Origin: Sphingomonas sp. Leaf343
GTDB lineage: Bacteria > Pseudomonadota > Alphaproteobacteria > Sphingomonadales > Sphingomonadaceae
Direction: 5' to 3'
DNA length: 64,000 bases
Assembly (NCBI RefSeq): GCF_001423765.1
Contig: NZ_LMPG01000016.1
Location: 1-64,000, forward strand
Shown here: piece by piece, positions 1 to 4,571 of the stretch
How positions within the stretch are numbered: the first letter of the stretch is position 1
How the letters are laid out: each line of letters starts with the position of its first letter
Notes under the pieces: model-generated
The model's input: the letters and a program-made list of their open reading frames with translations, nothing else
Told to the model about the DNA's origin: nothing
Database searches by the model: none
Translations under genes and position numbers: made by a program

Positions 1-216
1 CCCGCCGATGCTGCCAGGCGGGTTGTGCAACACCGCCCCGAGGGGCACCATACTAACCCCGGACTCCAGTTATGACTGGTAGAGCTTTGGGGAACACGTC
101 ACCGCTCTGGCGATGCTCGGCAAACATCTGTTCGACGAGGTTCAGGTCAGCACGCGGTGGAGACGAAGCTATAAGGCTCGCCCGCAGGACTATTTGTCTG
201 ATTTCCGTGAGCGTTG

Positions 217-884
217 ATGATGGCCGAGCACGAAATCATTGTCGTTAGCCGGGATGTCGGTGGCGGGTGGACGGTGCGGGAGAGTAGCGGCGTGTTGCTC
301 GGGCGCTTCATATCCGGTGCCGCAGCCAATCGCTTTGCCTTCGACGAGCAACACAGCCGGCTCGACAGCTCCGTCGCCCTATCAGACGGCGTTCTGACCC
401 TGCGGATAAGCGGCCATCCTCAAAGCCCGACACGCCTCTGGCGGAGAGCGGTTCGCGTAAGACTGACAGCATCCTCTATATCCATGCGACCCCGTTCGCG
501 ACGATATGCCTACATGAACAAACGGCCGAAGTTGGGAAGGCCCAAGGAGCCCGCGAGTGTCTGCTTGGGGTCCAAACGCCTGCCAATCGCCAAGCCGAGA
601 TTCTCGGTTTAAAGCCAAGCCGCGATTACGGCAGGAAGGGCACCATTGTCATAACCGAGCACTTGGCATCCGACGCTTATGGCCTCCTCATCCTTGCCCC
701 TGAGGTCGCGCTTGGCAGTGGCTGGCTGGGAGGCGACAGGGTCGTCGGTCGGGCAGCCATCCGTGACCTGTTGATCAAAGCCGCTCGTTTCACGAACGAT
801 GAACGGCAGAGGCTCACTATCTATTTGCCCAGCAGAGCGATCACGCTCCGGTTGGATGAGATCGAACGATACTTCCGAGCGTAA
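217..884 (+). pseudogene. Hypothetical gene, apparently frameshifted (DUF2188-like N-terminus)
   Basis: The first part reads from ATG 217 (or TTG 214) and gives about 60 natural-looking residues (EIIVVSRDVGGGWTVRE, then GRFISGAAANRFAFDE) resembling small DUF2188-type proteins. After about position 410 that frame becomes arginine-rich and stops at 612. The neighbouring frame stays open from before 410 to a stop at 884 and has better protein character (KTDSILYIHATPFATIC near 460, then LLIKAARFTNDERQRLTIYLPS near 770), but it has no ATG, GTG or TTG before 663. The simplest reading is one gene broken by a frameshift, or two fused remnants. I cannot assign a function. It lies inside the integrated element. 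Confidence 0.3.
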
Positions 885-1019
885 CATCGCTCCGCGGCGG
901 CTCCGAGCACTTGCCGAACGAGAGCAAAGTCCGGCCTAAGCTGAGAAGTTGGAAGCCGACCCCGGATGTCTGGGCCGAGCTCGCCGGCAACCTCAATAGC
1001 GAGCTCGACCCATTGTCGG

Positions 1020-1418
1020 TCATGTGGGGAAATGAATTCCACAAAGCTTGTTGCCATCGGGATCGCGGAAGTAGGCTAGTTCAATGGCCCCCATGGAGGG
1101 GCTCATTCGCGGTCCCGGTGGCGCTTCAACGGACGTGCCGCCGTTAGCGATGGCGACGTCGTGGAACTCCTTCACCTGCTCGGGCGAATTGCACGTGAAT
1201 GCGACGGTGCTGCCGTTTGCCACGGTCGCCGGCTCATCGTTGATGGGCTCGGTGACTATGAAGTTGGTGCCGTTCTCGTTGCGGTAGAACAGGCGGGTAT
1301 GGCCGCTGCCTGCGATATTGAGCGTGGCCTCGCTCACGCCAAGGACGCTCAGCACTTCGTCGTAGAAGCGCTTGGAGCGCTCGATATCGTTCGAACCTAC
1401 CATCGTATGAAACAGCAT
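1020..1418 (-). CDS. VOC-fold (glyoxalase/bleomycin-resistance type) protein
   Basis: The 132-residue product begins MLFHTMVGSNDIERSKRFYD and ends with FRDPDGNKLCGIHF, the paired beta-alpha-beta signature of the vicinal oxygen chelate superfamily. The metal-ligand-like positions are His4 near the start and the acidic/FRDPDGN strand at the end. The start at 1418 is chosen because AGGAGAGAG lies just upstream (1421-1430 read on the minus strand); a longer reading to 1478 adds a tail without family character. Members include glyoxalases, dioxygenases and antibiotic-binding proteins, and the substrate cannot be told from sequence. It is the only intact cargo-like gene seen in this end of the integrated element. 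Confidence 0.8.
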   Translation of the reverse strand: MLFHTMVGSNDIERSKRFYDEVLSVLGVSEATLNIAGSGHTRLFYRNENGTNFIVTEPINDEPATVANGSTVAFTCNSPEQVKEFHDVAIANGGTSVEAPPGPRMSPSMGAIELAYFRDPDGNKLCGIHFPT

Positions 1419-1689
1419 GGTCTCTCTCCTGACAGATGGCTGCCTGGTGCAAGGCGCCTGTAGGTGTCCCATAGCCAAGACAGACGCGCAGTCACGCCTC
1501 CTTCGTCATCGACATCGCCGGAGGACGGCAAAGGTATGTGGTCGTGCGGGCGAAGCAATAGCGACCAAGCTTCGGCGTTGGCTGGAGACAAATGACGCAT
1601 GACGGTGCAGGGCCTCTTGGCGCGGACATCCCGCTTAAAACAGGCACGAAACACCTTTGTGACCGTCAAAAGGGTCATCCCCCATCTGG

Positions 1690-2018
1690 TCAGGACATTG
1701 CACGTCGCCAGCGGCACAAATCAGGCAGTTCGTACATCAGCTTCAGGGCATCAGGCCAGCCGACGTCGGAGAATAAGCCGAGGATCGAGACCAGCTGTGC
1801 ACGGCGCCCCGGATGATCCGGACGACGACGCTGTTGGCAAGGCTTTCGTGATGATAGCCCTCGCGCGCTGCCGGCCCCGGCAGCACGGCGTGCACGATGT
1901 CGAACACGGCCGCAGGGTCCGCCGGGATCAGATATTCGCAGAGCTTGATCAGATGAGGGATCGTCGCCGGATTGCTCGAATAAGCGAGCAGATCGGGAAC
2001 GCCAGCAATCTGCTACCG
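1690..2018 (-). pseudogene. Remnant of a conserved hypothetical gene, frameshifted
   Basis: On the minus strand two frames must be joined to give a natural protein. From about 2017 down to 1815 one frame reads GVPDLLAYSSNPATIPHL, then AVFDIVHAVLPGPAAREG and SVVVRII. From about 1805 to the stop at 1690 the next frame reads AQLVSILGLFSDVGWPDAL and ends KLMYELPDLCRWRRAMS. The text is helical and leucine-rich, like the C-terminal part of a large protein. There is no start codon and stops close the first frame just upstream, so this is a decayed C-terminal fragment. I do not recognise the family with confidence. Confidence 0.4.
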
Positions 2019-2085
2019 TCACGGCGATGAATATCCGTCCATCGCCCGATAATGGACTTATTCAACAGCCTGCAAAGACTGTTGC

Positions 2086-3495
2086 TCATCCTGCGGCAAG
2101 CCGCGCCACTGCCGACCGGAGTTGATCGGCATCGATGCCGCCGCCCGCAAACTGCGCAGCCAGTGTGGCGATGAGCATGTTGTCGTCCACCTCGGCAGGC
2201 ACCGATCGGCTCACCGGTCGCGCCGGCACATGAGAAACCGTCCATCGTCGGGGCGCAATGCGCCGTTCCTTGCCATCCAGCACGGCGGCGATCTTGGCCG
2301 CCACCGCATCGGCAGCCGAGCGCAGCAGATCGTCGATATGGATATACCCCTGCGTCACGCCACGCTTGCCGTGTCCAAGCAAGCCCGCGATCGTCAGCTC
2401 GGAATAGCCCAACTCGCCCGCGATACTGGCGAAGGTGTCCCGAAAGACGTGCGGGGTGACGCCCTCGATCTGCGCGGTCTTGCAAAGCCGTTCGACCAGA
2501 TCGGGCACCTGCTTGTACCATGTCCCCGTCCAGTCCGAGGGGAAGATATAGGGATTGCCCGGCTGCTCGGCCTGCGCCTCGATCAGCTCCATCGCCACCG
2601 CGCCGACCACGCGGACCTGCGCGCCACTTTTGGTGTCGGGGAACATCACGCAGTCGGCATCGAAGTCGACCCAGCCACGCTGGAGCGCCTGCGCCTCGTT
2701 GCGGCGGAAGCCGGTCAACAGGATCAGCCGTACCGCGGCAAGGCCGACGGGATGCTCACCTTGGTCCGCCGCGGTTCGCATTGCCTTGCCTAATGTGGCC
2801 AACTCCGCGACCGACAGCCGGCGGGTCCGCTGGCCGCTTGCCAGCCGACGGACGCCCCGCGCTGGATTGTTGTCGATCTTGCCGAGCCGCAGCGCATGCT
2901 CGAACACGGCATGAAGCGTCGAGATGCTCCGCGATCCCGCACCAACGCCGCCGATCGTATCGCGCCCGCGCCCGACCCCGCGTGACCGCGACGACTTCCC
3001 CTGCGCGACATCGGCCTGGAAGGCGGCGATGTCGGGCGGCCCCAGCGACTTCACCTTGCGGGTGCCGATCAGCGGCTTGATGTGCCGCTCGATCCGGCTG
3101 CGATCCATCCGCAGCGTGGACATCTTGATCGGCAGCCGCCGCCGGCCGAGCAGCCGCCCGCTTTCGGCCTCTTCCAGATACCAGTCGCAGATGTCGGCCA
3201 CGGTGGGCGCCGCGCGTGCGGCATCGCGCGTCTCGATCGGATCGTTGCCCCTCGCTACGTCACCCAGCCGCTTCTTCGCCTCGATGCGCGCCTGCTCGAC
3301 CGTCAGCACCCCGCACCGGGCCAGCGTCAGCCGGCGGCTGCGGCCATCCGCATTGCGATACTGGAGGACGAAGGTCTTAAGGCCGGATGGCAGCACCCGC
3401 ACGCCAAACCCTCGCAACTCCTTGTCCCAGTGCGTTTCCTGTCCGGATGCCAGGATCGGCAATGCGTCGATCCGGGTCTTGGTGAGCTTCGCCAT
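2086..3495 (-). CDS. Tyrosine recombinase / phage-type integrase
   Basis: The product has 469 residues. An N-terminal DUF4102-like arm-binding domain (about 1-95, [20 protein letters not shown]) is followed by a SAM-like core-binding domain and the catalytic domain. The catalytic set is complete: Arg264/265 in [11 protein letters not shown], Lys289 in DTKSG, His349 and Arg352 in HVFRDTFA, His375 in LLGHG and Tyr384 in TQGYIHI. The start at 3495 is supported by GGGAGG eight bases upstream and by [12 protein letters not shown], the usual beginning of this family; a reading from 3564 adds nothing homologous. The gene points away from the tRNA-Thr fragment at 3683-3727, as expected for an integrase at an element end. 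An A-B-A'-B' inverted-repeat arrangement covers its leader. Confidence 0.95.
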
Positions 3496-3502
3496 AAGCA
3501 AC

Positions 3503-3564
3503 CCTCCCGCGTATTTTGCTGACAATAGCGCGGGAGGTCGAAATTGTAAGCATATTGTCAGCAA
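3503..3564 (-). promoter_or_regulatory. Two interleaved perfect inverted repeats in the integrase leader
   Basis: Repeat A is a perfect 12-base pair: TTGCTGACAATA (3516-3527) and TATTGTCAGCAA (3553-3564). Repeat B is a perfect 9-base pair: CCTCCCGCG (3503-3511) and CGCGGGAGG (3529-3537). On the minus strand the order is A-B-A'-B' followed by the start codon at 3495. B' contains the GGGAGG ribosome-binding site. In RNA the A and B stems interlock, so they could form a pseudoknot or exclude each other. In DNA, A could be an operator for an excisionase or repressor. The geometry is seen directly; the function is inference. Confidence 0.6.
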
Positions 3565-3598
3565 GTTCGATCAAAACAGGGCGTATTCGAGAGATTTA

Positions 3599-3658
3599 TG
3601 GCGTAGGTACAATTCTCACTAAGTGTTGAATAATAGTGGTTTGGCGTAGGATGGCGTA
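3599..3658. repeat. Three TGGCGTA direct repeats, possible integrase arm sites
   Basis: TGGCGTA occurs at 3599-3605, 3642-3648 and 3652-3658, all in one orientation, between the integrase gene and the tRNA-derived core. Short direct repeats beside the crossover core are typical arm-type sites for the N-terminal domain of tyrosine recombinases. Binding is inferred only from position. Confidence 0.4.
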
Positions 3659-3682
3659 CAACAGCGAACTATATTTCTCAAA

Positions 3683-3727
3683 TTGGTAAGGCTGAGGTCG
3701 TGAGTTCAATCCTCACCGGCAGCACCA
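3683..3727 (+). other. Attachment-site junction: 3' half of a tRNA-Thr(GGT) gene
   Basis: The sequence fits a tRNA from anticodon loop to CCA: loop TTGGTAA (3683-3689, anticodon GGT), anticodon-stem 3' strand GGCTG, variable loop AGGTC, T stem GTGAG with loop TTCAATC and CTCAC (3700-3716), acceptor strand CGGCAGC (3717-3723), A, then CCA at 3725-3727. No matching 5' half (expected to begin GCTGCCG) precedes it. It is therefore a displaced 3' end left by recombination at the anticodon loop, and it marks the end of the element carrying the adjacent integrase. The intact tRNA is predicted at the other element end, left of the window. Confidence 0.75.
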
Positions 3728-4571
3728 TTTTCCGATGACTTGGCTGGCTTCCGTTCAGAGGGAGGTGCGCCAAGCGTCACGGGGGCATCATCCGGCGACG
3801 CTAAGATCTGACGCGCTGCGTCGGCAGCCGACGGCTGAAAACTTCGCACAGACGGGTCGAAACGCCTCCTCAAAGGCGGGCTGAGCAGCGCCGCGTTGCA
3901 GAGAACGGCCAACCTGACGTGGCGGAGGCGCGAAGTATGACAGGACTGTGAAGTCGACACGCCGGCCGCCCGTGCTGCGGGCATCGATACCTCGCTCAGC
4001 GCCACGCTGCGAGCCAGCCCCGCCTGGGCAATCGAAGTAGCACTGCGCGGCGACCCCGTACGACGCACGTCGCTCACGCGCTTGCCGTTCGTATGGACAT
4101 CCGGCCGCGACCGGCGGGTACGAGAACGGGTATGTTGAACCAGTCTTCCACCACACGCACTCCGTCTTGCGTCGCAAGCCCGCGGATCAGGTGGCCGCGT
4201 GGGATGGGCGAGGTCTTACCCGCCGCCGTATGGATCGGGCGGCTCCTCGCTGGTCGTCGTCGGTCCGGGTCCGGACTCGCGGGCCGACGGTGATCCGCAA
4301 ATGGATAAGCTGCGGAATGACACTTATCCCGCCAGCCCATCATCGGCATCAATAACTAACCTTTTCAAGATTTAACTCATAAATTCTTGAGGGATTAACC
4401 TTGCGTGATTATTGTTCTGGTACGGATTTGAAGTACAAAATCCAAAGGGTTAGAAGAAGCTATTGGAATTACAGGAGAGGGGGTATAGTTATCGCGAACA
4501 GGTACCCGCATAACACGCGCCTTGGATCGAGGGCGAGCTGTCGAACGACTGTGGATTGACATGGAGAATGC
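3728..4571. other. Long stretch without a convincing gene
   Basis: No open frame here has good protein character. On the minus strand, 3706-4077 includes VALSEVSMPAARAAGVSTSQ, which faintly recalls the helix-turn-helix of IS66-type accessory proteins, but the surrounding frame is not convincing. Positions 4350-4480 are clearly more AT-rich than the surroundings and probably hold the promoter of the glycosidase gene that follows; I do not name -35 and -10 boxes. Confidence 0.4.

Follow-up and report, generated by a model that had tools for sequence, protein, structure and literature searches.

The leader of a tyrosine recombinase (integrase) gene in Sphingomonas sp. Leaf343 carries three copies of one motif, two direct and one inverted, which very probably form a three-site arm-type array for the N-terminal arm-binding domain of the integrase and constitute one arm of an attachment site, a reading that draws on the comparison of related sequences. 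The window, the whole 64,000-nucleotide (nt) stretch of DNA analysed here, had attracted attention for two interlocked inverted repeats upstream of the integrase gene (int). The original prediction saw in them an RNA pseudoknot or two exclusive folds that would hide or expose the int ribosome-binding site, or alternatively, in DNA, an operator at the first arm.

Both inverted repeats are exact, as originally described. Arm A (3553–3564) pairs with A′ (3516–3527) at 12/12 positions and arm B (3529–3537) with B′ (3503–3511) at 9/9, in the minus-strand order A-B-A′-B′, and the last arm includes the int Shine–Dalgarno sequence CGGGAGG (3503–3509). Both are improbable in shuffled sequence: a 12-bp inverted repeat was reached in 1 of 1,000 dinucleotide shuffles of the 185-nt leader, and a fraction of 0.00095 of 20,000 shuffles gave a 9-bp inverted repeat that placed an arm on the Shine–Dalgarno sequence. 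Arm A also has a direct copy 11 bp away, at 3542–3552, which the original prediction overlooked and which changes the interpretation of the repeats (Table 1).

Table 1 Features of the int-side end of the element in the window
Feature	Positions	Strand	Remarks
Integrase gene (tyrosine recombinase, 469 residues)	2086–3495	−	ATG at 3493–3495
Arm B′, CGCGGGAGG, contains the int Shine–Dalgarno sequence	3503–3511	−	From the sequence
Arm-type site 3 (arm A′), inverted copy, TGCTGACAATA	3517–3527	+	Inverted third copy also in 18/38 second-array loci
Candidate −10 hexamer TATTGT, within A′	3522–3527	−	Putative; 17 bp from the −35 candidate; RNA would start near 3515
Arm B, CCTCCCGCG, complementary to the Shine–Dalgarno region	3529–3537	−	Found only in the four closest leaders
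Arm-type site 2, direct copy 2, TGCTTACAATT	3542–3552	−	Spaced 11 bp, one helical turn, from copy 1
Candidate −35 hexamer CTTACA, within arm-type site 2	3545–3550	−	Putative
Arm-type site 1 (arm A), direct copy 1, TGCTGACAATA	3553–3563	−	The closest complete element has a near-identical motif at its far end
Three T(A/T)CGC(C/T)(A/G) repeats, 10-bp period, between core and arm sites	3642–3668	−	Candidate excisionase (RDF) sites
Attachment core, 3′ part of tRNA-Thr(GGT)	3683–3729	+	47/47 identical to the intact tRNA-Thr region

The integrase comprises an Arm-DNA-bind_3 domain (Pfam; residues 4–92, E = 8.9e-16) and a Phage_integrase domain (residues 236–389). Its start was placed at the ATG from which close homologs align, instead of the TTG at 3564 given by the list of open reading frames (ORFs). 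Against NCBIfam, the protein matched only Xer-type and integron-integrase models, every one below its cut-off; a sequence search of solved structures at E 0.001 returned no match, and a pattern-based search of viral contigs returned no close relatives. Upstream of int lies a 47-bp copy of the tRNA-Thr core; its counterpart, identical at 47/47 bases, is the intact tRNA-Thr region that this genome carries on a different contig (G000:C11:336764–336810). Because the core is identical to the 3′ part of the intact tRNA-Thr gene, the window holds the int-side end of a tRNA-integrated element.

Arrays in related leaders and at far ends

To place the repeats in a wider family, we collected leaders of related integrase genes from a search of genome contigs, from a family-wide search (matches at E 0.001 in 368 of 397 genomes, with part of the matching places taken) and from a genus-wide search (15 of 295 genomes at E 1e-100, that of the window included). 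Removal of L169, which has 25 nt of leader, and of 19 near-duplicates reduced the 107 leaders to 87 distinct ones. A direct repeat matching at 8/9 or more positions with a period of 11 bp is present in 60 of these 87 leaders, versus 0.5 expected, and 73 reach 7/9; the other periods tested (6–23) gave 0–5 in the same set. In 22 of the 73, the direct pair is accompanied by a third copy that is inverted and has no more than one mismatch; in 19 of these it lies 35–39 bp past the first copy. The motif itself differs widely among elements, yet agrees inside each, as illustrated by TGCTGACAA, TGCTTACAT, TGGAGACAA, TGGTGACAA, TGCTTCCG, GTGAGTTTT and TGGACACCA.

The spacing extends beyond the family. 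A class-wide draw, in which 12 of 142 genomes, that of the window included, gave matches at E 1e-60, yielded 12 further leaders, 10 of which score at least 8/9 at period 11, with two (L277 and L280) also scoring 9 at period 10. Nine plasmid records were found, and in the six inspected the leaders reach 8/9 in four cases, 7 in one and 5 in one. In viral contigs, the arm pattern gave two exact matches, L262 (inspected for its flank, tRNAs and ORFs of at least 150 residues overlapping 1–3500) and L263 (flank and tRNAs); both lie in AT-rich DNA and were judged to be chance matches rather than real arrays.

The array does not always coincide with the ribosome-binding site. In L037 (with its near-duplicates L033, L035, L036, L038 and L052) and in L173, an array of the TGCTTCCCC type starts about 122 bp before the start codon, so the position of the array is not always that of the ribosome site. 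In a further leader (L026, genome G341), the inverted arm copies can be extended by eye, toward the int start, to about 17 complementary bases, an extension for which the arm motif alone does not account; the Shine–Dalgarno sequence of this leader is among the most hidden relative to shuffles (rank 0.00).

The same motif recurs at the opposite end of related elements. The integrase of Sphingomonas sp. 8AM is 95% identical to that of the window, and its element spans about 15.7 kb from the core copy to an intact tRNA-Thr gene. At this far end, TGCTGACAATG occurs twice at 11 bp, followed by an inverted TGCTTACAATG, in an array that ends 50 bp from the intact tRNA-Thr gene and is the sole other array across the 17.5 kb scanned; neither B/B′ nor an int gene was seen there. 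Among the four closest elements, a far-end array was demonstrated in this one. Beside the intact tRNA-Thr genes in the genomes of L014 and L019, we found no array, only one isolated two-mismatch match.

For the window element, a search of all 17 contigs of its genome allowing two mismatches recovered the int-side array and no second array, and the flank of the intact tRNA-Thr gene holds no arm array. The far end of the element may have been lost, leaving the element stranded, or may lie in an assembly gap. Downstream of the intact tRNA-Thr(GGT) gene (G000:C11:336734–336808) are a serine recombinase gene (Pfam Resolvase and Recombinase) and a DUF2924 gene (L048, 735–3139), a neighbourhood that looks as though another element took the site.

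Searches for far arrays with motif patterns, in sets of 9, 11 and 29 genomes picked mostly because their int leaders carry the motif, gave matches in 7, 9 and 24 genomes, respectively, and none in the other 2, 2 and 5. Reversed-pattern controls gave 0 matches apart from one in G107. As read from the match tables, 28 elements (in 27 genomes, some of them closely related) have a second array in the same orientation and on the same contig as the int leader, at distances of 15–132 kb. Across 38 second-array loci, some of which lie on contigs other than that of the integrase, ARAGORN identified an intact tRNA in 21, and in each of these the tRNA starts at position 77–100 from the start of the array.

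An intact tRNA is present at 17 of 18 second arrays with an inverted copy versus 4 of 20 without one, where the 20 include G511, which is another int leader. The integrase group lacking a close inverted copy (for example, G162, G189 and G342) has mainly two direct copies, of the TGCTTCCGTGG or TGCTTACGTGG types, and with G511 left out, ARAGORN detected a tRNA within about 600–700 bp of 4 of its 19 far arrays; given so few tRNAs, the target of this group may differ. Two further sets of pattern matches appear unrelated to arm arrays: eight in G220, which belong to a dispersed repeat with TGCAGACATCTCGGAGACA, and one in G246.

The probable reader of the sites and the possible control of int

We compared motif similarity with protein identity over 46 loci (85 tried; 33 skipped, including 28 whose repeat match fell short of 8/9; 52 kept; and 6 redundant ones removed). 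Motif similarity correlates with identity in the arm domain (rank r = 0.655) and less with identity in the catalytic domain (0.388). The partial rank correlation for the arm domain given the catalytic domain is 0.572 (permutation p = 0.0005), whereas that for the catalytic domain given the arm domain is −0.014 (p = 0.61). The motif thus tracks the arm domain and not the catalytic domain, which points to the integrase's own arm domain as the reader of the sites. Since the DNA encoding the arm domain adjoins the leader, linkage could inflate this co-variation; linkage leaves unexplained the recurrence of the same motif tens of kilobases away, an agreement that by itself names no reader. The suggestion that arm A could act as an operator in DNA therefore came close, in that A, its direct copy and A′ are very probably DNA sites bound by the integrase.

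These observations suggest a model for the array. In relatives, two direct copies 11 bp apart recur at both ends of an element, with a motif that changes between elements, and in the window's group an inverted copy, likewise at both ends, begins 36–39 bp after the first copy. The arm domain of the integrase would read these sites, as the co-variation suggests, and by precedent the integrase would then bridge arm and core sites to assemble a recombination complex. The array in the leader would represent one arm of attP, as suggested by the two-ended layout and by the systems discussed below; in related elements, its partner would be the far-end array that adjoins the intact tRNA gene.

Because the int-side array overlies the int leader and, probably, the int promoter, integrase bound there would also repress int; by precedent, we consider such autorepression likely. 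The best promoter candidate, CTTACA-17 bp-TATTGT, is weak, and a σ70 consensus scan of 3300–4000 returned no promoter passing its stricter rule. The −10-like hexamers average 2.83 in int-side arrays versus 2.06 in far arrays (33 versus 17; p = 0.023), in a post hoc contrast among related rows in which a loose cut-off admitted about 13 two-site types, as we read them, to the 33 'near three-site' rows, and from which G511 (an int leader) and G290 (a near-duplicate of G033) were left out. The remaining two-site group goes the opposite way (2.0 near versus 2.74 far).

Alternative readings of the interleaved repeats

The B/B′ repeat differs from the array in its distribution. It was detected in the four closest leaders and in no others, and 34 of the 36 pair cells of their alignment are kept (9/9 pairs in the window and L013, 8/9 in L012 and 8/9 with one G–U in L014, as read from the alignment). 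We regard it as a clade-specific extra of the int leader, and an RNA fold of B with B′ is possible. One use of such a fold, as an addition to arm-site function, would be to hide the int ribosome site, together with A/A′, only in transcripts begun outside the element, with the element's own promoter starting inside A′ and escaping the hiding. Transposases of IS10 and IS50 are protected from read-through transcription, and hiding confined to external transcripts would match that idea. The candidate promoter fits, as its RNA would begin downstream of both A and B, and the modelled pairing of the Shine–Dalgarno sequence is higher in transcripts that include B (99, 82, 98 and 98% paired from starts at 3600, 3570, 3552 and 3540, respectively) than in those that lack it. 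Yet in the latter, starting at 3528, 3521 or 3515, the site is already 71% paired. Furthermore, the conservation concerns four sequences, with no family-wide occurrence, and its covariation is weak: two pairs are doubly changed among the four leaders, a number equalled by 75 of 500 shuffles. L012 keeps 8/9 B pairs, yet its Shine–Dalgarno sequence is no more hidden than in its own shuffles (rank 0.77). Protection against read-through is thus an unlikely, though conceivable, role for B/B′. A broader proposal, which we consider doubtful, is that one 60-bp stretch combines the arm array, an int promoter core with −35 and −10 hexamers taken from arm sites, and a B/B′ block on the translation of outside read-through, and that the family-wide combination of a strict array with a drifting motif offers a readable recognition code between Arm-DNA-bind_3 domains and their sites.

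The repeats might instead be operator sites for an excisionase (recombination directionality factor, RDF) or a separate repressor, rather than for the integrase. Direct repeats spaced by one helical turn are typical of RDF sites, according to excerpts of one report (PMC7498355), and the RdfS protein of ICEMlSymR7A binds immediately upstream of intS, according to excerpts of another (PMC11963761). However, instead of direct repeats confined to one arm, there are arrays at the two ends, with a tRNA adjoining many of those at the far end, and the arrays of the window's group include an inverted copy. The motif also follows the arm domain of the integrase beyond the catalytic domain, and the separate repeats with a 10-bp period near the core (3642–3668) are better RDF candidates. 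We therefore consider excisionase or repressor binding to the arm sites improbable. The candidate excisionase repeats, seen so far at the int end, include a fourth at 3599–3605 on the minus strand, and comparable repeats are present in the three closest leaders.

We find it very hard to credit an RNA device in which the leader folds into a pseudoknot, or alternates between A:A′ and B:B′ folds to expose or hide the int ribosome site. In its favour, the two stems are stable alone (−13.9 and −18.2 kcal/mol, respectively) and compete with each other, the Shine–Dalgarno pairing given above is high, and B/B′ has two doubly changed pairs. RNA pairing does not explain, however, why A and A′ vary in step with a direct third copy, and also with distant copies, tens of kilobases off, that adjoin a tRNA gene and not an int gene. 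For A/A′, an RNA pseudoknot or switch was rejected on account of this third copy and the far-end arrays of the same motif. By the same count in four leaders, 93.8% of A/A′ pairs are kept and one pair is doubly changed; the arms change together because both are DNA copies of one drifting site. The check named in advance by the original prediction, covariation in homologous leaders, gave the weak B/B′ result above, which falls short of the compensating changes expected of a structured RNA. The predicted RNA control of the ribosome site also found no counterpart in the family: across 69 family leaders, hiding of the Shine–Dalgarno sequence does not exceed that in shuffles (mean rank 0.48; rank 0.05 or lower in 3 of 69), and the ranks disagree even among close leaders (0.15 in the window, 0.77 in L012 and 0.00 in L019; L014 was dropped from this set as a near-duplicate). 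A transcript from the best, if weak, promoter candidate would moreover lack A and B altogether, a start that the original prediction itself listed as a refutation. The 4 nt joining A′ and B′ would be short to span a 12-bp stem in a pseudoknot, and an Rfam search at gathering scores returned no match at the leader, only a tRNA elsewhere in the window.

Relation to known systems

Arm-type sites, their position at the int promoter and autorepression by integrase are already known. The arm-type sites P1, P2 and P′1–P′3 of phage lambda are short direct repeats, spaced by about one turn and flanking the core on either side, that the N-terminal domain of Int binds; the domain family and the layout differ from those of the window integrase.

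A closer parallel is ICEMlSymR7A of Mesorhizobium japonicum R7A, likewise alphaproteobacterial, in which several arm-type sites of about 10 bp lie in the attP adjoining intS, as described in the available excerpts of PMC11963761. That attP is 283 bp long and holds five sites of consensus TGKTGGTATC, all required for efficient integration (PMC11963761), whereas the window's group has two direct copies and one inverted copy. IntS reduces the activity of its own promoter by about 25% (PMC11963761). In the KplE1 prophage of Escherichia coli, arm-type sites lie in the promoter region of intS, a gene subject to autorepression that no single arm-site mutation derepressed, as far as the excerpted text of PMC2951348 reports. 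The int promoter of KplE1 overlaps the end of an attachment site at a tRNA gene, and the window may resemble it if the weak promoter candidate within the array is the int promoter; KplE1 differs in its host, in its TAAA arm motif and in that its autorepression was measured, whereas here it is inferred (PMC2951348). Our literature search, which left most subscription journals outside its reach, returned no description of a two-direct-plus-one-inverted array at both ends of sphingomonad elements and no paper joining Sphingomonas with arm-type integrase sites.

The findings bear on how such elements are analysed. The pairing of A with A′ persists from element to element because both arms copy one drifting DNA site, and an RNA covariation test applied to A/A′ alone could mislead. 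Two copies 11 bp apart before an Arm-DNA-bind_3 integrase are a usable signature for locating the other end of an element, where a matching array is often present and in many cases adjoins the target tRNA. The drift of the motif with the arm domain provides dozens of natural domain–site pairs for working out the code by which these integrases may recognize their arm sites.
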